In this document: positions 150 to 9,387 of the stretch, in pieces | Numbering within the stretch: position 1 is the first letter of the stretch | Layout of the letters: each line of letters opens with the position of its first letter | Assembly: GCF_007748035.1 (NCBI RefSeq) | Contig: NZ_CP036278.1 | Span: forward strand, 744,001 to 808,000 | DNA from: Aeoliella mucimassa | GTDB lineage: Bacteria; Planctomycetota; Planctomycetia; Pirellulales; Lacipirellulaceae | Direction of reading: 5' to 3' | Length of the DNA stretch: 64,000 bases | Translations under genes and position numbers: made by a program | Notes under the pieces: generated by a model | What the model was told of the DNA's origin: nothing | Database searches by the model: none | The model's input: the letters and a program-made list of their open reading frames with translations, nothing else

Positions 150-1364
150 ATGCTTCCATTCTTCCAAGCCGCTTGGCATACGACGCTCGAACTTGCTCCC
201 TGGCTCTTGCTCGGAGCCTTCGTTGCGGGGTTGATGCACGTGTTGTTGCCGCGCGACTTTGTGCGGCGCCAACTTTCGGGGCGGGCCGGGGTGGCCAAGG
301 CGGTAGCGCTCGGGGTGCCTTTGCCGCTTTGTTCGTGCGGTGTGATTCCCGTCGCGGTGAGTCTCCGCGAGCAGCAAGCCAGTCGCGGGGCGACGGTCGG
401 TTTTCTCATTTCCACTCCGCAGACCGGCGTCGACTCGATTCTCGTGAGCGGGGCCATGCTTGGCTGGCCATTTGCCTTGTTCAAAGTCGTGGCCGCGCTC
501 GTTACCGGGCTGATCGGCGGCTGGGTAACCGACGCGGTAGAGCCCAAGTCCAACGAGTTGCCTGTTACCCGTCCTAACTCGGCGGCCGGCGCGAAGCATC
601 GCGGCTGGCGCGACTTGGTCGAGCACGCACTCGAAATACTGCAATCGATCTGGGGGTGGTTAGTCGTTGGCGTACTGCTGTCGGCTGCCATCTCGACGTT
701 GGTCCCCAACTCGGTGCTCACGGGACTGGCAGCGTATGGAGGGCTGGCTGCCATGGCGTTTGCGTTGGTGGTGTCGTTGCCGCTGTACGTCTGTGCGACC
801 GCGTCGGTGCCAATTGCTGCCGCGCTGGTAGCGGGTGGTTTGCCCCCTGGAGCGGCGCTGGTATTCCTCATGGCCGGCCCTGCGACCAACGCGGCGACGA
901 TCGGCGCGGTGAAGCGGACCCTCGGCGGTCGCGGGCTGACCGTCTACTTGTCGACCATTGTCGTCGGTAGCATGGCCGCGGGATTGTTGTTCGATCAGGT
1001 GCTTAGCGCCAGCAGCATGACCGAACACCTGCACGAGCACCCGGCCACCTGGTGGAACGTGACAAGCGCTGTTGTGCTGTTGCTCTTGATCGTCTGGTTT
1101 GCGGTGACCGACCTGAATCGCAAGTTGCTAAGCAGCCGTCCCATCGCTAGCGATATGGATGCAACGACCACCACGGTTCCGCTGGTGGGCCTGTCGTGCC
1201 AGAACTGCGTGAACAAAGTGGAGTCGAGTCTCAATAGAGACCCCGAGGTCCAGCAAGCCCGCGTCACGCTCGAACCGCCACAAGCGGTGGTTGCCGGCGA
1301 GGTGAGTCGCGAGCGGATTCAAGAGATCGTCGAGGCGGCCGGTTTCGGAGTAGGCGAATCGTGA
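150..1364 (+). CDS. SO_0444-type Cu/Zn efflux permease with C-terminal HMA domain
   Basis: This is a 404-residue polytopic membrane protein of the DUF318/ArsP-like permease superfamily. It resembles the SO_0444 group, proposed to export copper or zinc. The signature PLPLCSCGVIP lies at about residues 57-67 and supplies a CxC pair in the membrane core. A second half-repeat carries PLYVCATASVPIAAAL. About eight to nine hydrophobic helices precede a soluble C-terminal domain from about residue 340. That domain contains GLSCQNCVNKVE, a CxxC heavy-metal-associated (HMA) motif like those of CopZ or P-type ATPases. The start lacks a Shine-Dalgarno sequence and follows a C-rich tract. The gene ends upstream of the cobalamin riboswitch and so is not under it. 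The exact metal is inferred. Confidence 0.85.
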   Translation: MLPFFQAAWHTTLELAPWLLLGAFVAGLMHVLLPRDFVRRQLSGRAGVAKAVALGVPLPLCSCGVIPVAVSLREQQASRGATVGFLISTPQTGVDSILVSGAMLGWPFALFKVVAALVTGLIGGWVTDAVEPKSNELPVTRPNSAAGAKHRGWRDLVEHALEILQSIWGWLVVGVLLSAAISTLVPNSVLTGLAAYGGLAAMAFALVVSLPLYVCATASVPIAAALVAGGLPPGAALVFLMAGPATNAATIGAVKRTLGGRGLTVYLSTIVVGSMAAGLLFDQVLSASSMTEHLHEHPATWWNVTSAVVLLLLIVWFAVTDLNRKLLSSRPIASDMDATTTTVPLVGLSCQNCVNKVESSLNRDPEVQQARVTLEPPQAVVAGEVSRERIQEIVEAAGFGVGES

Positions 1365-1477: not shown

Positions 1478-1667
1478 CGATGGTGGTCGATCGTGCCGAA
1501 GGCTTGGCCGATCGACGTACAGGGAACTCCGGTGCAATTCCGGGACGGCCCCGCCGCTGTGACCGAGTAACATTTCGCAAGTCGTTTCTTTTTGCCATTG
1601 CCCGAAAATACGCGGGCGAGAAGGCGTGACTTGGAAAGCTCGGGAGTCAGAAGACCTACCACCGCGA
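1478..1667 (+). promoter_or_regulatory. Cobalamin (B12) riboswitch
   Basis: The conserved core reads AGGGAACTCCGGTGCAATTC from 1521, continues through CGGGACGGCCCCGCCGCTGT and ends in GACCG (to 1565). This matches the GGGAA / GGTG-AAtCC / GCCCCGC-CTGT signature of AdoCbl riboswitches. The B12 box appears as GGGAGTCAGAAGACCTACC at 1642-1660. A closing helix can form between GGTGG (1482-1486) and CCACC (1659-1663). Downstream is a small hairpin, CGACTG (1680-1685) with CAGTCG (1693-1698), then about 100 bases of leader to the ATG at 1799. I see no U-run terminator, so control may act on translation. Reading frames through this region are not genes. Confidence 0.93.
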
Positions 1668-1798
1668 AGTATGCAGAACCGACTGCGAGGGACAGTCGCT
1701 GCGTAACAATCGTTAGGAAAGCGCCCGTGGCACGTGCTCTTTGCATCGGACCTTGTTCCGGTGGCAATGCGCGCGGAGCTTACGTTCGCTCAAAGGTC

Positions 1799-2614
1799 AT
1801 GCCTCGGTACGCGGGCTTTACATTGGTTGAATTGCTGGTGGTGATTGCCATCATCGGCGTGCTGATTGCGCTGCTGCTGCCAGCCGTGCAAGCGGCTCGC
1901 GAAGCGTCGAACCGCGCCGCGTGCAAGAACAACCTCCGCCAGCTCGGCATTGCCATGCACGGCTTTCACGACACCAAGGGGCATTTCCCCCGTGGCGGCG
2001 GCAGCCCTAAGAAAGCCCAAGTAAGCTGGACCACCGAGCTGCTGCCATGGCTCGAAGAACAGCCGCTCGCCGACCTGATCGACCACACCGAGCCTTACAC
2101 TTCCGACAGCAATCTGCCGGCCGGCAGCAGGGTGATCGACATGCTGCTCTGCCCGAGCAAGCCGCACGTACGCGAGCTACGGGGCTCGGCCGATCTGTCG
2201 TCGAGTTCGCCAAATCGCTACGGGCCGACCTGCTATGGTGGCATGCAAGGCGAGCGCGGGCTGCGATCGGCTAAGGCAACCAATAATCCAGAACGAGGGA
2301 CGATGATCTTCGAACGCGAAATCTCCATCGTCGAAATCACCGATGGCACCTCGCACACGATGTTGCTCGGCGAAGCCCCCGAGGGGATTCACGGCATCTG
2401 GATCGGCGTCCGCAACCTGTTCGATCAATCGGCCCCCATCAACACCCGTAGTGGTTCGGAGGATGCCGACTTCACCGACTTCGGGCAGGAGCTAAGCAGC
2501 TATCACCCAGGCGGCGCGCAAGTCTTGCTGGCCGACGGGGGGGGGAAGTTCTTCCCCGAAGAGATGGACGACCGATTGCTGGCTGCTTACTGTTCACGAG
2601 CGAGTGAGGACTGA
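1799..2614 (+). CDS. DUF1559 pseudopilin-like protein under B12 riboswitch
   Basis: This 271-residue protein starts with a type IV pilin/pseudopilin N-terminus: [20 protein letters not shown] follows a short basic leader (MPRYA) and a G/F prepilin peptidase site. The remainder fits the planctomycete DUF1559 (SBP_bac_10) family, with the conserved AAREASNRAACKNNLRQLGI and a late ADGGGKF-type H-X9-DG motif. The frame stays open upstream into the riboswitch, but that part is RNA structure, and ATG 1799 begins exactly at the pilin leader. The protein is probably inserted in the inner membrane and assembled or retained by a T2SS/T4P-like machine. It is first in the riboswitch operon, two bases before the DUF4465 gene. 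Its role in B12 handling is inferred from position only. Confidence 0.9.
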   Translation: MPRYAGFTLVELLVVIAIIGVLIALLLPAVQAAREASNRAACKNNLRQLGIAMHGFHDTKGHFPRGGGSPKKAQVSWTTELLPWLEEQPLADLIDHTEPYTSDSNLPAGSRVIDMLLCPSKPHVRELRGSADLSSSSPNRYGPTCYGGMQGERGLRSAKATNNPERGTMIFEREISIVEITDGTSHTMLLGEAPEGIHGIWIGVRNLFDQSAPINTRSGSEDADFTDFGQELSSYHPGGAQVLLADGGGKFFPEEMDDRLLAAYCSRASED

Positions 2615-2616
2615 GC

Positions 2617-3756
2617 ATGCACGCAATATCTTCTATCGCGATTCGCCAAACAACAATACTCACCTGCTGGTGCTGCTGCATCGGCTGGTTGCTCGCGAGT
2701 GCTTCGGCCGAGACCGTAACGGTCGACTTCGCGGGGCTGCTCGACGCGCCCGAGTCACATTGGAACGGACCTGCTGAACAAGGCGAAACCGTCGAAGGAG
2801 AATACGGCCCCGAAGTGGTAGGCACGTTTGCCAGCCATGGATTGCAGTTCACCAATATCTACGAGCAAACCTACGGAAGCTGGCGGGGCTTTTCCTACTC
2901 GAACGAAACGGACACCACCACGGCCGGCTTCACCAACCAATTCAGCGCTTGCGCCGGCAGCGGACATGGCACCACTGACGATACCTACGCGGTCGGTTTT
3001 GGGCATTGGGATCTCGACGAGACGTTCGACTCCGACGAGCCTTTCGATCCGAGCAACCAAGCACACTTGTTCGCGCTTCCGACGCTCGAACTCCCGTACG
3101 GCAGCACGATCGAGAGCACTTGGATCACCAACACCACGTACGCAGCGCTGTCGATGCGCGATGGCGACTCGTTTGCGAAAGCCTTTGGCGGCGAGTTCGG
3201 CACCGACCCCGATTGGCTGCGAATCACGGCCTACGGAACCGATGCTTCCGGCACCCCGCTCGATGGGTCGGTCGACTTCTACTTGGCCGACTTCCGCTCG
3301 ACCGACGCGGGCGAAGACTACATCGTTGCCGACTGGACCGAGTGGGATCTCTCCGCTCTCGAGGGTGCCCGTCGAGTGCACTTTAACCTTGCGTCGTCTG
3401 ACGTAGGGCTGTTCGGCATGAACACGCCCGCCACGTTTGCGTTAGACGATATAACGCTTCGCTTCGATTTGCCGGCCGGCGACTACAACCGCGATGGTCT
3501 GGTGAATCTCGCCGACTACACCCTCTGGCGCGACAGCCTCGGCAGCACCGTCGATTGGGTGGGCTCCGGCGCCGATGGCAATCTCGACGGAGTCGTCGAC
3601 TTCGACGATTACGAACTTTGGAAACTGCAATTCGCGGCTGCTTCGGCAGCGGGCAACATCGCACTTGGCCACGCGGTGCCCGAGCCTTCGGCAGCAGCGG
3701 TTTGTTTTTATTTACTGGGCCTGACGTTTGTGGTTCGGGCTTTATTCACTCACTGA
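2617..3756 (+). CDS. DUF4465 (BtuH-like) cobalamin-binding candidate with dockerin and PEP-CTERM
   Basis: This 379-residue secreted protein has, in order: a signal peptide (residues 1 to about 31, ending SASA), a DUF4465 domain (about 35-275), a dockerin type I-like pair of DxNxDGxVD calcium loops (about 290-340) and a C-terminal VPEPS motif with a hydrophobic helix (PEP-CTERM). DUF4465 hallmarks are visible: WRGFSYSNETDT, ITNTTYAALSMRDGDSFAK, VDFYLADFRS and FGMNTPATFALDDITL. DUF4465 includes Bacteroidetes BtuH, a surface lipoprotein that binds vitamin B12. Here the lipid anchor is replaced by exosortase-type sorting. The gene follows DUF1559 by two bases and lies under a B12 riboswitch, which strongly suggests a cobalamin capture role. 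Binding itself is inferred. Confidence 0.85.
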   Translation: MHAISSIAIRQTTILTCWCCCIGWLLASASAETVTVDFAGLLDAPESHWNGPAEQGETVEGEYGPEVVGTFASHGLQFTNIYEQTYGSWRGFSYSNETDTTTAGFTNQFSACAGSGHGTTDDTYAVGFGHWDLDETFDSDEPFDPSNQAHLFALPTLELPYGSTIESTWITNTTYAALSMRDGDSFAKAFGGEFGTDPDWLRITAYGTDASGTPLDGSVDFYLADFRSTDAGEDYIVADWTEWDLSALEGARRVHFNLASSDVGLFGMNTPATFALDDITLRFDLPAGDYNRDGLVNLADYTLWRDSLGSTVDWVGSGADGNLDGVVDFDDYELWKLQFAAASAAGNIALGHAVPEPSAAAVCFYLLGLTFVVRALFTH

Positions 3757-3769
3757 TGAGGTAGTTCTA

Positions 3770-4615
3770 ATGATGTTTGCAAACCGAGTGATTTCTGGCC
3801 TGGCAGCTAGCTTGCTGCTGGGTGTTACCGCGAGTGCCGTGGTGGCGGGGCCTTACCCGTCGTTCAGCGACACTTCGCATCAAGTGCTTCCCGGACAGAT
3901 TTCCGCCTGGGCGACTTCGGTGGTTGATTACTCCCCCACAGCCGGAGTCGATGCCGCTTACGCCGATGCATCCCATGCCTTGGCTGCCAACGATGGTGGA
4001 ATCGTGTCGCTGGGCGATCTCGATGCCGCTCAGATTGCCGCGGGCGATCTTCCCGGCACCCTGACCGTGAAGTTCGACACGCTGATTTCCGACTTGGCCG
4101 GCCCCGACCTGGCAGTGTTCGAAAACGCGAGCCAGTTTTATACCGATCCAGTGATCTTCGCCGAGTTGGCTTACGTGGAAGTCTCCAGCAACGGCACCGA
4201 CTTCGTGCGGTTCCCTTCGGTCTCGCTCAACACCGAGGACGATCTGGTCGCTAACTTCGGTCGCGCCTACGCGGGAGCCGATACCACGAACATCTACAAC
4301 CTGGCAGGCGTGCATCCCACTGGCATAGGCACTCCCTTCGACTTGGCAGAGCTGAGCGGCATGGCTGAAGTGGTGAGCGGTGCGGTCGATCTGTCGGCGA
4401 TTCAATACGTACGTCTGGTCGATATCCCCGGGAGCGGCGACTTCGTCGACTCGCTTGGCAACCCGATCTTCGACGCCTGGGTGACCACTGGTTCCGGCGG
4501 TTTGGATCTCGACGCGGTAGGTGCCATCAACACCGTGCCAGAACCTTCGACCACGCTGCTAGCACTGCTGGGCATCGCCTTGGTGGCAGGTGGCCGTTTG
4601 GCAAAGCGAGGCTAA
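3770..4615 (+). CDS. PEP-CTERM surface protein of B12-riboswitch operon
   Basis: This 281-residue protein has a signal peptide (cleavage near VVAGP) and a C-terminal VPEPSTTLLALLGIALVAGG PEP-CTERM helix followed by basic residues. The mature region resembles a 'cell surface protein' family I recall beside DUF4465 and B12-receptor genes. Hallmarks are GGIVSLGDLD, PDLAVFENA, FAELAYVEVSSNGTDFVRFP, TTNIYNLAGVHPTGIGTPFD, VRLVDIPGSGDFVDSLGNP and GGLDLDAVGAIN. The start was chosen at ATG 3770 because GAGG at 3758-3761 lies 8 bases upstream; an adjacent ATG at 3773 is possible. It lies 13 bases after the DUF4465 gene, so it is probably a partner surface binder in the same operon. Its biochemical function is not established. 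Confidence 0.75.
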   Translation: MMFANRVISGLAASLLLGVTASAVVAGPYPSFSDTSHQVLPGQISAWATSVVDYSPTAGVDAAYADASHALAANDGGIVSLGDLDAAQIAAGDLPGTLTVKFDTLISDLAGPDLAVFENASQFYTDPVIFAELAYVEVSSNGTDFVRFPSVSLNTEDDLVANFGRAYAGADTTNIYNLAGVHPTGIGTPFDLAELSGMAEVVSGAVDLSAIQYVRLVDIPGSGDFVDSLGNPIFDAWVTTGSGGLDLDAVGAINTVPEPSTTLLALLGIALVAGGRLAKRG

Positions 4616-4618
4616 GTA

Positions 4619-4813
4619 GTGCCAGAGCAACGTACGGAAACGACATCTCGCGACTATACAATCGAGAATGGTCGCTTGGTGTTTACAGCCGAGTACCTTT
4701 TGCGACGGGGCACGTGCTGCGGCAGCGGCTGTCGGCACTGCCCCTATCGCAATCCGAAAACTTCTACGAGCGAACAGGTTGCTTCCGAGAAGACAGCGCT
4801 AAAATGCCAGTGA
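4619..4813 (+). CDS. DUF5522 Cys-rich small protein
   Basis: This 64-residue protein begins with GTG three bases after the preceding stop. The family signature is FTAEYLLRRGTCCGSGCRHC followed by PY. Five cysteines and one histidine in about 20 residues suggest a zinc or iron-sulfur site. DUF5522 proteins are short and uncharacterised, and I know of no proven function. Tight spacing implies co-translation with the PEP-CTERM gene, so the riboswitch probably controls it too. It has no signal peptide and is therefore likely cytoplasmic. Confidence 0.75.
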   Translation: MPEQRTETTSRDYTIENGRLVFTAEYLLRRGTCCGSGCRHCPYRNPKTSTSEQVASEKTALKCQ

Positions 4814-4872: not shown

Positions 4873-5652
4873 GTGGATACATTCGAATCGAAGAACGCCC
4901 GCGCGTGGGACAAGATGGTTCAAGGGCGGGCCCCGCTGGCTCGCCCGGCGACCGATCGCGATTTTGCGAACCCGCTCCGCACGGTCGACCCGCTGGGTTG
5001 GCTGGGCGAATCGATCCAGGGATGGCGGGTGCTTTGTCTGGCCGCAGGAGGTGGCCGGCAGAGCGCCCTTTATGCTGCCGCAGGTGCCGACGTCACGGTG
5101 CTCGACATTAGCCGCGAAATGCTTGCGCAAGATGCCGCAGTCGCCCGCGAGCGTAAGCTCAAGCTACGTATCGTCGAAGGGACGATGACCGACCTGTCGA
5201 TGTTCGCCGCTGGCGATTTCGACTTGGTGCTGCAGCCGGTCAGCAGTTGCTACGTGCCCGACGTGGTGGTCGTCTACCGCCAGGTCGCCCGTTTGCTCCA
5301 AGGGGGCGGGCTGTACGTGAGCCAGCACAAGACACCGGCTAGCCTGCAGGTGGCAGCCAAACCGTCGTCGGCTGGCTACGTGATCGACGAAACCTACTAT
5401 CGCACCGCGCCGCTGCCGCCGGCCACCGAGCCATCGCGGCTCCGCGAAGTCGGCGCTACCGAATACCTGCATCGCTGGGAACAGCTGATCGGCGGGCTCT
5501 GCCGCGCAGGGTTCGTGGTGGAAGATCTCATCGAACCAGCTCACGCCGAGGCCGACGCCGAGCGGGGCACGTTTGCCCACCGCGCGCAGTACATCGCCCC
5601 CTACGTTCGCATCAAAGCCCGCAGGGTCGGAGAACGTGGGCTGATTCGGTAA
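4873..5652 (+). CDS. Class I SAM-dependent methyltransferase
   Basis: This 259-residue cytoplasmic protein has a Rossmann-type SAM-binding core. Motif I is VLCLAAGGGRQSALYAAAGA, with a variant AAGGG instead of the usual GxGxG. It is followed by an acidic strand end (VTVLDISREML), a motif II region (EGTMTDLSMF) and FDLVLQPVS. It starts with GTG at 4873, because no ATG fits the N-terminus. A 59-base gap with a short GTGAC/GTCAC hairpin separates it from the DUF5522 gene, so read-through from the riboswitch operon is possible but not certain. The substrate is unknown. Confidence 0.75.
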   Translation: MDTFESKNARAWDKMVQGRAPLARPATDRDFANPLRTVDPLGWLGESIQGWRVLCLAAGGGRQSALYAAAGADVTVLDISREMLAQDAAVARERKLKLRIVEGTMTDLSMFAAGDFDLVLQPVSSCYVPDVVVVYRQVARLLQGGGLYVSQHKTPASLQVAAKPSSAGYVIDETYYRTAPLPPATEPSRLREVGATEYLHRWEQLIGGLCRAGFVVEDLIEPAHAEADAERGTFAHRAQYIAPYVRIKARRVGERGLIR

Positions 5653-5668: not shown

Positions 5669-6517
5669 TTAGCCGAGATTCTCGTCGCTCAGCACTTCCT
5701 CAGCCGGACCGCCGCGCGGTGCATGTCCGTCCAAGAGCTGGTAACGGTCAAGCCGGGGGATCAGCAGGATGGCTGCAATGGTGCAAGTATTCGCGGTTAA
5801 GAACACGTGCATCTTTTCAGGGAATATAAACCAGTCAAACAGATAGTAAGCCAGGATGGTGAGTGCAGCAAATAGACCGAGTCGCCAAAGCCGTAGCGGA
5901 CTGTTGAGAAGCAAGGTTCCTCCCGCTGCTCCCAGTAGAGCAAGCAAAGAGTAGGCAAGAATCGTTTGCGAGGTGAATAGTTCTTCCAAAAAGTAGTTGC
6001 CTGTAATGCGAAGCAAGCTGGCGAGCACTGCAGTAGCCAACATGGCGATCAACAGGTGAACCATCCGGAATTGGGGGAACCACAGCGGTTGCTCCTTTAT
6101 CTGCCAGCGACGGAGGAGATGGCGGAGCAGGTGCCCCAGTAGCATGAATCCCAGCATCAGGTGGGTATACAGCAAAAGGCGGAGCAGTGTAATGAAGTGC
6201 TCGATCCAAAGTTCTCCATAGTCAATTCTTGAAACAACTGAGCCGATAGCCAACGCAACTACTTCCATTAGCAGCAAGGTGAGCCCCCGGCGGTGATTGC
6301 GGTCAAAGAATACCCAAATCGCAGCCGTCGCCGCTTGTCCGTAGGCGAATCCCAAGACCAGATAGAGCGCAAACCTTCCATCGAGTTCGCCACCGATCAG
6401 AAACAACAAGAGATCAACGATGGCAAGAATGAGCAACATCACCCTTGTCATTGGTCCGATCTGGCCCTTAGTAAGCTTTGCTGACGCATCGGCAGGCTGA
6501 TGAGATGGTTCGTCCAT
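5669..6517 (-). CDS. Multi-pass membrane protein, tandem paralogue 1
   Basis: This 282-residue protein has about seven to eight hydrophobic helices and a soluble C-terminal tail (IPRLDRYQLLDGHAPRGGPA). I do not recognise a named family. The core motif FAYGQAATAAIWVFFDRNHR recurs in the next two genes. I chose MDEPSHQ as the start because the aligned paralogues also begin with MDE. The 12 extra upstream codons remain open only because the duplicated upstream DNA is conserved. It is the last of three same-strand copies and was probably created by a recent tandem duplication, since its N- and C-terminal coding sequence and 5' flank nearly match copy 2. Confidence 0.75.
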   Translation of the reverse strand: MDEPSHQPADASAKLTKGQIGPMTRVMLLILAIVDLLLFLIGGELDGRFALYLVLGFAYGQAATAAIWVFFDRNHRRGLTLLLMEVVALAIGSVVSRIDYGELWIEHFITLLRLLLYTHLMLGFMLLGHLLRHLLRRWQIKEQPLWFPQFRMVHLLIAMLATAVLASLLRITGNYFLEELFTSQTILAYSLLALLGAAGGTLLLNSPLRLWRLGLFAALTILAYYLFDWFIFPEKMHVFLTANTCTIAAILLIPRLDRYQLLDGHAPRGGPAEEVLSDENLG

Positions 6518-6598
6518 ACATGCGAATATGACTCGCGGACAGCAGGCTGGCAACTATCCACTGAACCGTTATTTCATGGAAGCCACCGAGCCCCCTGA

Positions 6599-7417
6599 TT
6601 AAGCCGGACCGCCACGCGGTGGGTGCTCGTTCAAGAACTTGTATCGGTCAAGCCTCGGGATCAGCAATATGGCTGCAATGGTGCACGCATTCGATAATAG
6701 GAACCCATATAGTTCTTCAGCGTCAATCAGCCAGTTGAGAGTCAGCGAAATGAGCAGCATGATGGCGATGAATAATCCGATTCGCCACCGCTGGACCGGA
6801 CTGTTTAGCAGCAGAATGCCTGCTGCAGTCGGCAGTAGAGCAGCCAATGCTTGGGCGATGAGTGTTTTTCCTTTGATCAGGTACTCGAAATAGTCACCTG
6901 GTGTAAAGCGAAGGAGCATAGCGATCGCCGCAGTTGCAAACATTGCCACTAGCAAGTGGAGCATACGGAATCGGAAGAACCAAAGTGGTTGCTCCATGGG
7001 CCGACAACGATCAAGGAGACATCGCAGCACGTGATCCAGTATCATGAATCCAATTGCCAAGTGGGAATACACTAATATTTGCAGTAGCGTGGTGAAGTAC
7101 TCTTCCCAACGGTTGCTACCGTCTATCGTAGAAATCATGGAGCCGTTTACTAGCAGAACGACTTCTGCCAGTACGATGGTGAGTCCTTTGCGGTGGTTCT
7201 GATCGGAAAACACCCAAAGCCCAGCAGCTGCTGATTGTCCGTAGGCGAACCCCATAATCAACAAGTACCGAGAGTCTGCTATCGGGCCATCGTTTGCCAA
7301 GAATATCGCCAGATCAACGATGGCAAGAATGAGCACCATCGCCCTCGTCATTGGGCCGATCTGGCCTTTGGTGAGCTTTGCTGACGCATCGGCAGACTGA
7401 TGAGATGGTTCGTCCAT
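6599..7417 (-). CDS. Multi-pass membrane protein, tandem paralogue 2
   Basis: This 272-residue integral membrane protein is closely similar to the 5669-6517 product. It has the same opening (MDEPSHQSADASAKLTKGQI), the same FAYGQSAAAGLWVFSDQNHR core and the same tail, IPRLDRYKFLNEHPPRGGPA. The middle helices differ more, which suggests divergence or relaxed selection. The gene lies 81 bases upstream of copy 1, and both keep an almost identical 40-base 5' flank, so each may carry its own promoter. No enzymatic motif is visible. Function unknown. Confidence 0.75.
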   Translation of the reverse strand: MDEPSHQSADASAKLTKGQIGPMTRAMVLILAIVDLAIFLANDGPIADSRYLLIMGFAYGQSAAAGLWVFSDQNHRKGLTIVLAEVVLLVNGSMISTIDGSNRWEEYFTTLLQILVYSHLAIGFMILDHVLRCLLDRCRPMEQPLWFFRFRMLHLLVAMFATAAIAMLLRFTPGDYFEYLIKGKTLIAQALAALLPTAAGILLLNSPVQRWRIGLFIAIMLLISLTLNWLIDAEELYGFLLSNACTIAAILLIPRLDRYKFLNEHPPRGGPA

Positions 7418-7520
7418 GCATGCGAATATGACTCGCAGACAGCAGGCTGGCAACTATCCATGCAGCTTCTTGTTTGGGTAACCGCCACGCGTCCGTGTTC
7501 GTCCTCGATCGACTTGCTCG

Positions 7521-8381
7521 TCACTCCTCGGGTGTCTCCCTCGATTCCGCTTGCTCGTCCGGTGGTTCCACCAGAACGTGAATGCGGTAGCGATCAACCC
7601 GCGGGATCAGCAAGGCAACAGCTACGGTGAGCGACTGTGACATGAAAAACAAATGCAAGTCGCTATCGGCCGACAGCCAGCAGGCGACAAAGGAAATAAG
7701 TAGCGTGCTGGTGGCAAACGCCCCGAGTCGCCAGAGTCGCAGCGGATGATTGAGCAGCAGGATACCTCCTGAGGCTGCGGCCAGGGCAAACAACGAGTAG
7801 ATCAGGTAGGTTCGCCAGTCCAGTAGTTCTGACAAGTCATCTTCACTTGCAAAACGGAGCGAGGTAGCGATTGTTGCCGTGGCGACCATCGCGAATAGCA
7901 AATGGATCATGCGGAATTGAGGGAACCAAAGCGGTTGTTGGCTCGGCCACCTTTGCCGCAATAGGTGTCGCACCAGATGTCCCAACAGCATGAATCCCAA
8001 CACCAAGTGGGTGTAGGTCATCACTATCAGTGTCACACCAATCCATTTATCCCAACGATTGATCCCATAGCTCCAGATCGTCAGCCCCGTGCTGATGGCC
8101 AACGAAATCACTTCTGCCAGCAACAGGGTGAGTCCCCGTCGTTGGATGCGATCGGAAAACAGCCAGATCATCGCAGCCGCTGCTTGTCCGTAAGTGAAGC
8201 CTAGGAAGACCAGGAACTCAAGGTCACCGCTGATAGCATCCCCCAGGCTGCAGATGGCCAGATCGACCCCCGCGAAGGCGAGCACCATCAGCCAGGTAAC
8301 GGGGCCCAATCGCCAAGCGGTGGCGGCTGTGGGTGGCGGGGCGGCGGGAGCGGCCATCGGCGGTCGGGGCGATTCGTCCAT
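7521..8381 (-). CDS. Multi-pass membrane protein, tandem paralogue 3
   Basis: This 286-residue protein is the most divergent member of the triplet. It starts MDESPRPPMAAPAAPPPTAA, shares the FTYGQAAAAMIWLFSDRIQR core, and has a longer C-terminal tail rich in Glu and Arg (VEPPDEQAESRETPEE). About eight hydrophobic segments are visible. A longer open frame upstream crosses the intergenic region towards the divergent shikimate-dehydrogenase-like gene, but ATG 8381 matches the paralogue starts. It is first of the three in transcription order and was probably the ancestral copy. Function unknown. Confidence 0.75.
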   Translation of the reverse strand: MDESPRPPMAAPAAPPPTAATAWRLGPVTWLMVLAFAGVDLAICSLGDAISGDLEFLVFLGFTYGQAAAAMIWLFSDRIQRRGLTLLLAEVISLAISTGLTIWSYGINRWDKWIGVTLIVMTYTHLVLGFMLLGHLVRHLLRQRWPSQQPLWFPQFRMIHLLFAMVATATIATSLRFASEDDLSELLDWRTYLIYSLFALAAASGGILLLNHPLRLWRLGAFATSTLLISFVACWLSADSDLHLFFMSQSLTVAVALLIPRVDRYRIHVLVEPPDEQAESRETPEE

Positions 8382-8553
8382 GAATGCGGCTACTACTCGC
8401 GGAATCGATGCTGGCAATTCTCGGCGTTGCAGCCGAGCGGGGAACAAGTCAGAATAGTTTAGGTGATTTTCCCGGCGAGGCGTACCTCGCCCACGCAGAA
8501 GCCTGTTTTGCAGTGTTTCTGGCCTTGGCTCCTCCGACCGCAGACCCTCATCC

Positions 8554-9387
8554 GTGTCCGATACCCTGCTTGAACATTGTGCGTTTCTCGCCGCGAGTGC
8601 TGCCGGCAATCCCACGCATTACATGGTGGAACAGGCGCTCACGCAGGCCGAACTCGAATGGCGGTTCCTGTCGTTCGAAGCCGCCGATACCGAACTCGCC
8701 CGGGCGCTCGATGGCCTCGACGTGCTGGGCTTTCGCGGCGTGCTGCTATCGGCCGAGTACCGTGGCCCGGCAGTCGAGTTACTCGACATGCTGACGCCTC
8801 GCGCGGAGCGGGCGGGCTCGGTCGATTGCCTGGTGCGGAGCGAAGGAAAGTTGCTCGGCGACAATTTGTACGGAGCCGCTTTCGTCGAGTCGCTCGGCGA
8901 TCTTTCGGAGCTGTCGGTGCTGGTGGTCGGCGATGGCCGCGTTGCTCGCACCGTGGCCGCGGCTGCCGGCGATGGCGGAGCGCAGCAAGTCTTCTTGGCC
9001 GGCGACGACATCACCGCTATCGAGTCGATGAAAGAGCTGCTGTCGGTCGACACCAACACGGTTTACGAGATGGTGCCGATGGACGACAACGTCGTGCACG
9101 CCCCGGCGACGGCTAACGTCATGGTGTTCGCTCCCGACAGCGACGAGGTGGTCGACCGCCCGCTGATCGATACGTCGGCCACGAGCGGCACGCTGACCAT
9201 CGTCGACACTCGGCTGCGTGGTTCACCTACGGGACTGCTGAAGTTTGCCACCGAGCAGGGAGCCACCATCATCGACGGGGTCGAACTGTTCGCTCGCGAA
9301 ACCGCCTTAGCGCTCGAGCTATGGACCGGTATGCGGTTCGATCGCGCCCCGCTACAGGAACTCGCCGAAGAGTTTTTGGGGGTGTAG
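8554..9387 (+). CDS. Shikimate-dehydrogenase-like protein lacking catalytic residues
   Basis: This 277-residue protein is co-linear with AroE. It has a substrate-domain-like N-terminus (AGNPTHYMVEQAL, about residues 17-29), then GFRGVLLSAEY where AroE has its GxNVTxPxK loop, then LLGDNLYGAAFVESL where AroE has GxNTDxxGF, and a Rossmann stretch (LSVLVVGDGRVARTVAAAA). The catalytic Lys of the VTxPxK loop and the catalytic Asp of NTD are both absent (Asp replaced by Tyr 106). It is therefore probably not a functional shikimate dehydrogenase. It starts with GTG at 8554. It lies upstream of bioD and is divergent from the membrane triplet. A regulatory or redox-paralogue role is only a guess. Confidence 0.7.
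   Translation: MSDTLLEHCAFLAASAAGNPTHYMVEQALTQAELEWRFLSFEAADTELARALDGLDVLGFRGVLLSAEYRGPAVELLDMLTPRAERAGSVDCLVRSEGKLLGDNLYGAAFVESLGDLSELSVLVVGDGRVARTVAAAAGDGGAQQVFLAGDDITAIESMKELLSVDTNTVYEMVPMDDNVVHAPATANVMVFAPDSDEVVDRPLIDTSATSGTLTIVDTRLRGSPTGLLKFATEQGATIIDGVELFARETALALELWTGMRFDRAPLQELAEEFLGV

Follow-up and report, generated by a model that had tools for sequence, protein, structure and literature searches.

The closest described relatives of the locus reported here are the vitamin B12 (B12) binding surface proteins of gut Bacteroidetes and the TonB-dependent BtuB-BtuG uptake complex. In the available text of PMC13398666 (2026), DUF4465 is described as a B12-binding jelly-roll family, and B12 binding is reported for eight members, namely BtuJ1, BtuJ2 and a further six that include 'Pan' from the planctomycete Mucisphaera calidilacus. 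The same text places BtuJ genes in B12-riboswitch loci and gives a B12-binding Tyr of the HI loop in 97% of homologues. The available part of PMC12751083 also ties DUF4465 to BtuJ1 and BtuJ2. BtuH is a different domain, which according to its authors has no known structural homologues (PMC8941943, available text), and BtuG1 is described as carrying a C-terminal BtuH domain of ~250 residues (PMC10404256, available text). Here we describe an operon of the planctomycete Aeoliella mucimassa, located in a 64,000-nucleotide stretch of contig NZ_CP036278.1 (positions 744,001 to 808,000, forward strand; hereafter the window, whose own numbering is used). It consists of a cobalamin riboswitch, a DUF1559 pilin-like gene, a DUF4465 gene and a gene for a second surface-type protein, termed P4. 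We consider it likely that this is a B12-repressed surface-capture operon with a functional, dedicated pilin. It is the pilin-like gene that is conserved and puzzling in this operon, a point that an earlier note on this DNA missed.

Layout of the riboswitch operon

The riboswitch aptamer lies at 1464-1677 on the forward strand, where RF00174 scored 94.5 bits (gathering score 31.5; expectation value, E, 3e-22) over all 189 positions. It was the sole RF00174 match in the genome, a single contig of 6.6 Mb. Downstream on the same strand, the pilin-like gene comes first (1799-2614), followed by the DUF4465 gene (2617-3756) and the P4 gene (3770-4615). The earlier note had proposed a cobalamin riboswitch ahead of DUF1559, DUF4465 and a second surface gene, with BtuB, BtuF, BtuC and BtuD missing from the operon. 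The Rfam run, the Pfam matches and the coordinates bore this out, and neither these four nor any TonB receptor was found by Pfam among the operon proteins. Compared with the BtuB-BtuG complex, the operon has the same regulatory RNA and the same kind of accessory binders, whereas it carries a pilin-like gene and lacks the receptor; its proteobacterial and desulfobacterial relatives do carry a TonB receptor. In such an arrangement, low B12 would allow the riboswitch to permit expression of the operon. The genome also encodes a B12-dependent methionine synthase (PF02965, 432.7 bits).

The DUF4465 protein belongs to the BtuJ family

The product of 2617-3756, which has an N-terminal signal by eye, matched PF14717 with 180 bits (cut-off 25). 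The AlphaFold model of its DUF4465 domain, computed from a 56-row alignment, reached a predicted local distance difference test score (pLDDT) of 93.4. This augmented jelly-roll fold matched B12-bound D5EK51 (9hmu; E 3e-19, template-modelling (TM) scores 0.75/0.84) and BtuJ1 (9fct; E 6e-19). The protein is therefore assigned to the BtuJ family and not to BtuH. The earlier note had taken DUF4465 to contain BtuH and suggested comparing the predicted structure with it; both the literature and the fold matches point to BtuJ1/BtuJ2 instead, and of the two proteins it is P4 that best, though distantly, matches the BtuH domain. What stood of the proposed surface B12 capture locus was the riboswitch operon with two surface-type proteins that have B12-binding relatives, and what fell was the DUF4465/BtuH assignment.

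With BtuJ1, BtuJ2 and D5EK51 (DUF4465, IPR027828) the window protein shares the Pfam family and the fold. It differs from them in having a PEP-CTERM-like tail and a dockerin-like module in the lipid anchor's stead, in a Thr for the Tyr of the HI loop, and in an operon without BtuB. The dockerin-like calcium module, which had already been pointed out, covers residues 287-334 (3475-3618, forward strand) and did match PF00404, although at 16.9 bits it stayed below the cut-off of 22.9.

The replacement of the HI-loop Tyr by Thr273, at a position where 51 of the 55 other alignment rows carry Tyr, weighs against B12 binding by this protein. It could mean that the window DUF4465 protein has lost B12 binding and that the BtuH-like protein is the sole binder. 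We regard such a loss as unlikely, as the remainder of the HI-loop motif (NTPA.F) is kept, as is the DE-helix Tyr (Tyr175, equated with Tyr146 of BtuJ1 from the alignment), and the riboswitch and operon are intact. Moreover, other riboswitch-linked DUF4465 proteins also depart from Tyr (Thr in L054, Gly in L073 and Phe in L048). The HI-loop Tyr was treated as common but not universal, and thus not as defining for the family.

P4 is distantly BtuH-like

For P4, a protein of 281 residues, PEP-CTERM was the sole Pfam match at E<=1. Its model (63-row alignment, pLDDT 95.3) gave a single PDB fold match with E<=0.001, namely chain 8blw_B of BtuG1 (E 1e-5). When the 63-row profile was run against 177,635 PDB sequences, 8blw_B again came out on top, at residues 391-482 of 663, which lie mostly within the BtuH extension going by the description in the available text of PMC10404256. 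Several values speak against a close relation: the TM score by query length was 0.50 with a root-mean-square deviation of 8.8, the profile E was 0.0045, and the lower fold matches were discoidin/CBM-like domains. The BtuH2 structure 7BIZ was not among the fold matches listed. We therefore call the predicted P4 domain BtuH-like and do not claim family membership, the relation being distant though two methods agree.

BtuH of B. thetaiotaomicron, like P4, is encoded in a riboswitch operon together with a DUF4465 gene. Compared with BtuH2 and the BtuH domain of BtuG1 (Bacteroides), P4 is very distant in sequence, has no Ig/PKD or propeller N-terminus (Pfam, E<=1) and carries a PEP-CTERM tail for the lipid anchor, the absence of a lipid signal being judged by eye only.

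The many discoidin/CBM32-like fold neighbours that follow 8blw_B, and the presence of a pilin-like protein together with PEP-CTERM and dockerin-like modules, would also suit an adhesion programme of B12-starved cells, in which the pilin and the PEP-CTERM proteins would serve to fasten the cell to matrix or to neighbours that release B12, and not to import B12. This seems quite improbable to us given the B12 binding reported for eight tested DUF4465 members (PMC13398666, available text), the TonB receptors of related operons, and single loci with CobT, BtuR or BtuF-like genes nearby. Under the capture reading, both surface proteins would bind B12.

In very large proteins at L089 7824-13592, L110 7860-13712 and L047 5003-8218, P4 is fused to a single DUF4465 domain or to several. 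A P4-like domain also occurs in Methanosarcina spelaei (L050), where the long protein containing it extends past both ends of an archaeal contig of 3.5 kb.

PEP-CTERM tails

PEP-CTERM sorting signals had been proposed for both surface proteins. On P4 the signal was found by Pfam (PF07589, 23.7 bits, cut-off 20.7); on the DUF4465 protein PF07589 was not listed at E<=1, and the tail, VPEPSA plus a hydrophobic stretch, was recognised by eye only. The exosortase family PF09721 had four matches at three places in the genome, the best with 196.7 and 187.2 bits. In the sampled loci, a strict pattern found PEP-CTERM-like tails on DUF4465 proteins of planctomycetes (9/23), the verrucomicrobial group (4/7) and proteobacteria (6/6), and on P4 proteins of the same groups (12/35, 6/21 and 5/7). 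Because such tails recur in both families and in several phyla, PEP-CTERM anchoring was rejected as a special trait of the window locus, and the anchor highlighted by the earlier note does not make the architecture unique. The BtuJ-type and BtuH-like proteins would be exported and held by PEP-CTERM tails in place of lipid anchors, and would bind cobamide outside the cell. The B12-binding families themselves are known or distantly known, while searches of open-access literature, judged by title, turned up nothing that connects cobalamin riboswitches with PEP-CTERM, exosortase or pilins.

Pilins and TonB receptors at P4 loci

A 7-row P4 alignment was scanned over genome contigs, and the best 80 of at least 545 confirmed matches were analysed; their phylum labels are our own assignment, and possibly mis-binned metagenome-assembled genomes (MAGs) are included. 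Relative to P4, DUF4465 was fused in 12 loci, within 300 bases in 28 and farther away in 5; the other 35 gave no DUF4465 match. Riboswitches were called with an nhmmer profile of the riboswitch core, plus cmscan (RF00174) on part of the loci, and cmscan agreed in all 12 positive P4 loci checked. Because the nhmmer profile missed all six betaproteobacterial riboswitches, which cmscan found, its misses are no evidence of absence.

In 57 of the 80 loci, the 5 kb upstream of P4 contained a same-strand cobalamin riboswitch (23 by cmscan, 34 by nhmmer alone). Among the 23 others, 11 have less than 1.7 kb upstream in the contig. Against a firm tie between P4 and the riboswitch, cmscan of 17 of these 23 gave none over the cut-off, including seven from the verrucomicrobial group that have at least 4.9 kb upstream. 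Two nhmmer matches were on the opposite strand, both in L110, and one lay downstream of P4 in L038, immediately ahead of the pilin of that locus.

To identify prepilins we used an N-terminal pattern, which was widened after a first count had missed visible cases and was applied identically to loci and flanks. A same-strand prepilin gene adjoined P4 in 28/34 loci of Planctomycetota, 13/18 of Verrucomicrobiota, Lentisphaerae and Kiritimatiellae, and 3/3 of Sumerlaeota, Armatimonadota and 'Actinomycetes' MAGs. This makes 44 of 55 loci in Planctomycetota, Verrucomicrobiota and allied phyla versus 0/25 in the others (0/7 proteobacterial, 0/12 desulfobacterial, deltaproteobacterial or myxobacterial, 0/4 cyanobacterial and 0/2 other loci). 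The background was low: flanking sequence beyond 3 kb, 636 kb in total, contained 3 prepilins. TonB receptors were present in 21 of the 80 loci, comprising all 7 proteobacterial loci, 11 of the 12 desulfobacterial, deltaproteobacterial or myxobacterial loci and three verrucomicrobial-group loci, of which L047 also has a pilin and L059 and L099 do not; none was found in the 34 planctomycete loci. Taken together, 43 loci had a pilin only, 20 a TonB receptor only, 1 both and 16 neither (Fisher p 3e-8, ignoring kinship).

The earlier note had proposed a survey of planctomycetes for the order riboswitch-DUF1559-DUF4465. Among 392 planctomycete genomes, DUF4465 was found in 11, at 12 loci; P4 was adjacent or fused in 7/12 and a same-strand pilin adjoined in 8/12, the window's own locus included. 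Three of the four misses have a divergent pilin next door, and that of L023 has its own reverse-strand cobalamin riboswitch (L005 647-772, 68.9 bits).

Where P4 copies lack an adjacent DUF4465 gene, five neighbouring genes were noticed (L060 5950-7800, L104 6717-7688, L084 8798-9820, L040 3435-4523 and L108 6343-7482). Four of the five products have a PEP-CTERM match, one of them below the cut-off, and two have a weak beta-propeller match; they are perhaps analogues of BtuG. The BtuG-type Pfam model had no match at E<=0.1 in six P4 neighbours of such loci.

Pilins at other planctomycete riboswitches

We also looked at planctomycete cobalamin riboswitches independently of P4. From ~150 best-scoring riboswitch places, 55 regions were picked by strand and by downstream room on the contig; places already sampled and some near-duplicates per contig were excluded, and several regions share a genome or genus. 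Within 3 kb downstream, a pilin is present in 15 regions and a TonB receptor in 13, with no region holding both and 27 holding neither (Fisher p 0.012), and no other prepilin was found elsewhere in the 408 kb of these regions. The pilin regions were also richer in B12-related motifs: a BtuF-type motif occurred in 6/15 of them versus 0/40 of the others, and a DUF71-type motif in 5/15 versus 1/40. Pfam, run on two pilin regions, gave Peripla_BP_2 in L157 and L168 and PF01902 (DUF71) in L157. DUF71 was tied to B12 salvage earlier (PMC3541065, available part), so that some pilin-bearing riboswitch regions share DUF71 or BtuF-type motifs with known salvage operons; the available main text of that paper contains neither 'pilin' nor 'planctomy'.

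Three features of this sample reduce its force. Nearly half of the regions (27/55) have neither gene, the Fisher p is only 0.012, and a single family (f5, 10 genera) supplies 13 of the 15 pilin regions, the 13 TonB regions being spread over five other families. The split between pilin and TonB receptor thus follows kinship to a large part.

Pilin families

The operon pilin of the window matched PF07596 with 157 bits and the prepilin methylation motif PF07963 (N_methyl) with 33.8 bits (cut-off 21.2). It shares this motif and the DUF1559 domain, with its H-X9-DG motif, with type IV pilins and pseudopilins of the DUF1559 kind. It differs from DUF1559 pilins generally in standing under a B12 riboswitch and in being shorter than the 29 examined own-genome paralogues (266 residues counted from the GF motif, versus 277-391). 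For the prepilin-peptidase family, the genome has matches above the cut-off at two places.

With the N-termini left out of the comparison, most operon pilins belong either to family A, the DUF1559 type that includes the window's, or to family B. Family B pilins are mostly from Phycisphaerae and Verrucomicrobiota, have no match to the own-genome DUF1559 paralogues at E<=1e-3, and include by grouping all 15 riboswitch-first pilins of the 55-region sample. A family A tree was built from 17 pilins of riboswitch-type loci, three of them divergent neighbours, and the 29 own-genome paralogues. In this tree the operon label needs 4 changes versus 13.9 in shuffles, and the window pilin clusters with pilins of three other species (99/97), apart from most own-genome paralogues. 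The operon pilins are not one clade, as three paralogues nest among them and L031 falls outside, which counts against the preferred reading.

When family B (43 rows) was searched back against the 392 planctomycete genomes, 73 of them had hits at E<=1e-10; no more than 7 candidates were scored in each genome, and a single copy per genome does not follow from this. At 36 of the 48 places with at least 100 bits, a cobalamin riboswitch stands on the same strand within 3.5 kb upstream (25 from earlier scans and 11 from new ones, L227 by nhmmer only). At least 17 of these 48 places supplied profile rows themselves; after removal of 17 such suppliers, the riboswitch was found at 19/31. On the opposing side, no riboswitch was found at 12 of the 48, which are nine genomes of one genus, two contig-edge cuts and L219. 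The nine (L207-L215), all of one planctomycete genus, keep the family B pilin, and RF00174 had no match in the ~3 kb upstream of it. Among 16 weaker places, drawn from the better-scoring part of 34, 13 had a riboswitch match at E<0.01 by nhmmer alone.

Possible routes into the periplasm

The genome encodes three TonB receptors (PF00593) elsewhere, which could carry B12, and one FecBCD-type importer (Peripla_BP_2/FecCD/ATPase), the only such cluster found. Because of these genes a conventional route has to be weighed, in which the surface proteins catch B12, one of the three receptors and the importer bring it in, and the pilin is generic and has no part in transport. The size of the pilin family favours this explanation: 95 own-genome matches to the operon pilin (itself and split matches counted) stand beside a single cobalamin riboswitch, and Planctopirus limnophila has 68 DUF1559 paralogues (PMC10632474, available text). 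The own receptors scored 93-109 on the curated B12-receptor model, which says little about them because a riboswitch-linked receptor, that of L093, also misses the required 600 with 179. The scores assigned neither the receptors nor the importer cluster to B12 or to iron. None of the three has a cobalamin riboswitch in the whole-genome RF00174 search, and a generic pilin would hardly be expected to follow cobalamin riboswitches in 15/55 regions, with none elsewhere in them, and to do so in two pilin families. We hold the conventional route to be possible and do not favour it.

In our preferred reading the pilin belongs to the system as a dedicated component. It sits at the operon position that the TonB-dependent receptor has in proteobacteria and desulfobacteria, and would most likely serve the step from surface to periplasm: it might form a pseudopilus that presents the loaded binder or pulls it in, or act as a receiving domain held in the membrane. 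A further proposal, which we put forward tentatively and think rather less probable than not, is that the pilin of this operon takes the place of BtuB and that, more generally, in Planctomycetes, Verrucomicrobia and allied phyla pseudopilins made under B12 limitation replace BtuB and carry cobamide from BtuJ and BtuH-like binders into the periplasm. Part of the DUF1559 pilin-like family could then be ligand-specific uptake devices. A riboswitch-controlled pilin at the position of the TonB receptor gives a short list of deletion candidates for B12 crossing of the outer membrane and, if the proposal is true, a first candidate ligand for DUF1559-type pilins, of which this genome holds dozens of copies. 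The range of BtuH-like and BtuJ proteins would extend beyond gut Bacteroidetes and take in free-living phyla that use a different anchor.

The sole importer cluster (L035 5837-11993; genome ~6,343,836-6,349,992) starts with a DUF1559 pilin, followed by a small lipoprotein-like gene. This pilin (L144) lies within the tree branch that holds most riboswitch-operon pilins, and no cobalamin riboswitch was found at the cluster. One of the TonB receptors is flanked by two open reading frames of equal length with identical first 60 residues (L034 8024-9004 and 15045-16025), transposase-like by eye.

Neighbouring genes

Two further genes follow on the forward strand, and their membership of the system is doubtful. 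A small DUF5522 gene (4619-4813, 60.7 bits) lies 3 bases past the P4 stop, and a class I methyltransferase gene occupies 4873-5652. They are kept in 1/91 (L080) and 3/91 (L037, L080, L102) loci of other genomes, respectively, and were rejected as core members because few loci keep them. The methyltransferase was also rejected as corrinoid-protein-associated, its model match of 35.7 being far below the cut-off of 180.

Directly 5' of the riboswitch, the window encodes an SO_0444-type Cu/Zn efflux permease to which an HMA domain is fused (150-1364, forward strand), and a related permease also lies upstream in L080 and L039. On the reverse strand, 5669-8615 holds three tandem membrane-type proteins of 294, 284 and 364 residues, alike by eye and with no Pfam family above its cut-off.

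L080, from Botrimarina hoheduenensis, is a syntenic locus with the order permease, riboswitch, DUF1559, P4, DUF5522 and methyltransferase. In the place of DUF4465 it encodes a 291-residue protein (7120-7995) with dockerin-like and PEP-CTERM-like parts, a VWGFRWNG motif and no Pfam family over the cut-off, which is possibly another B12-binding family.

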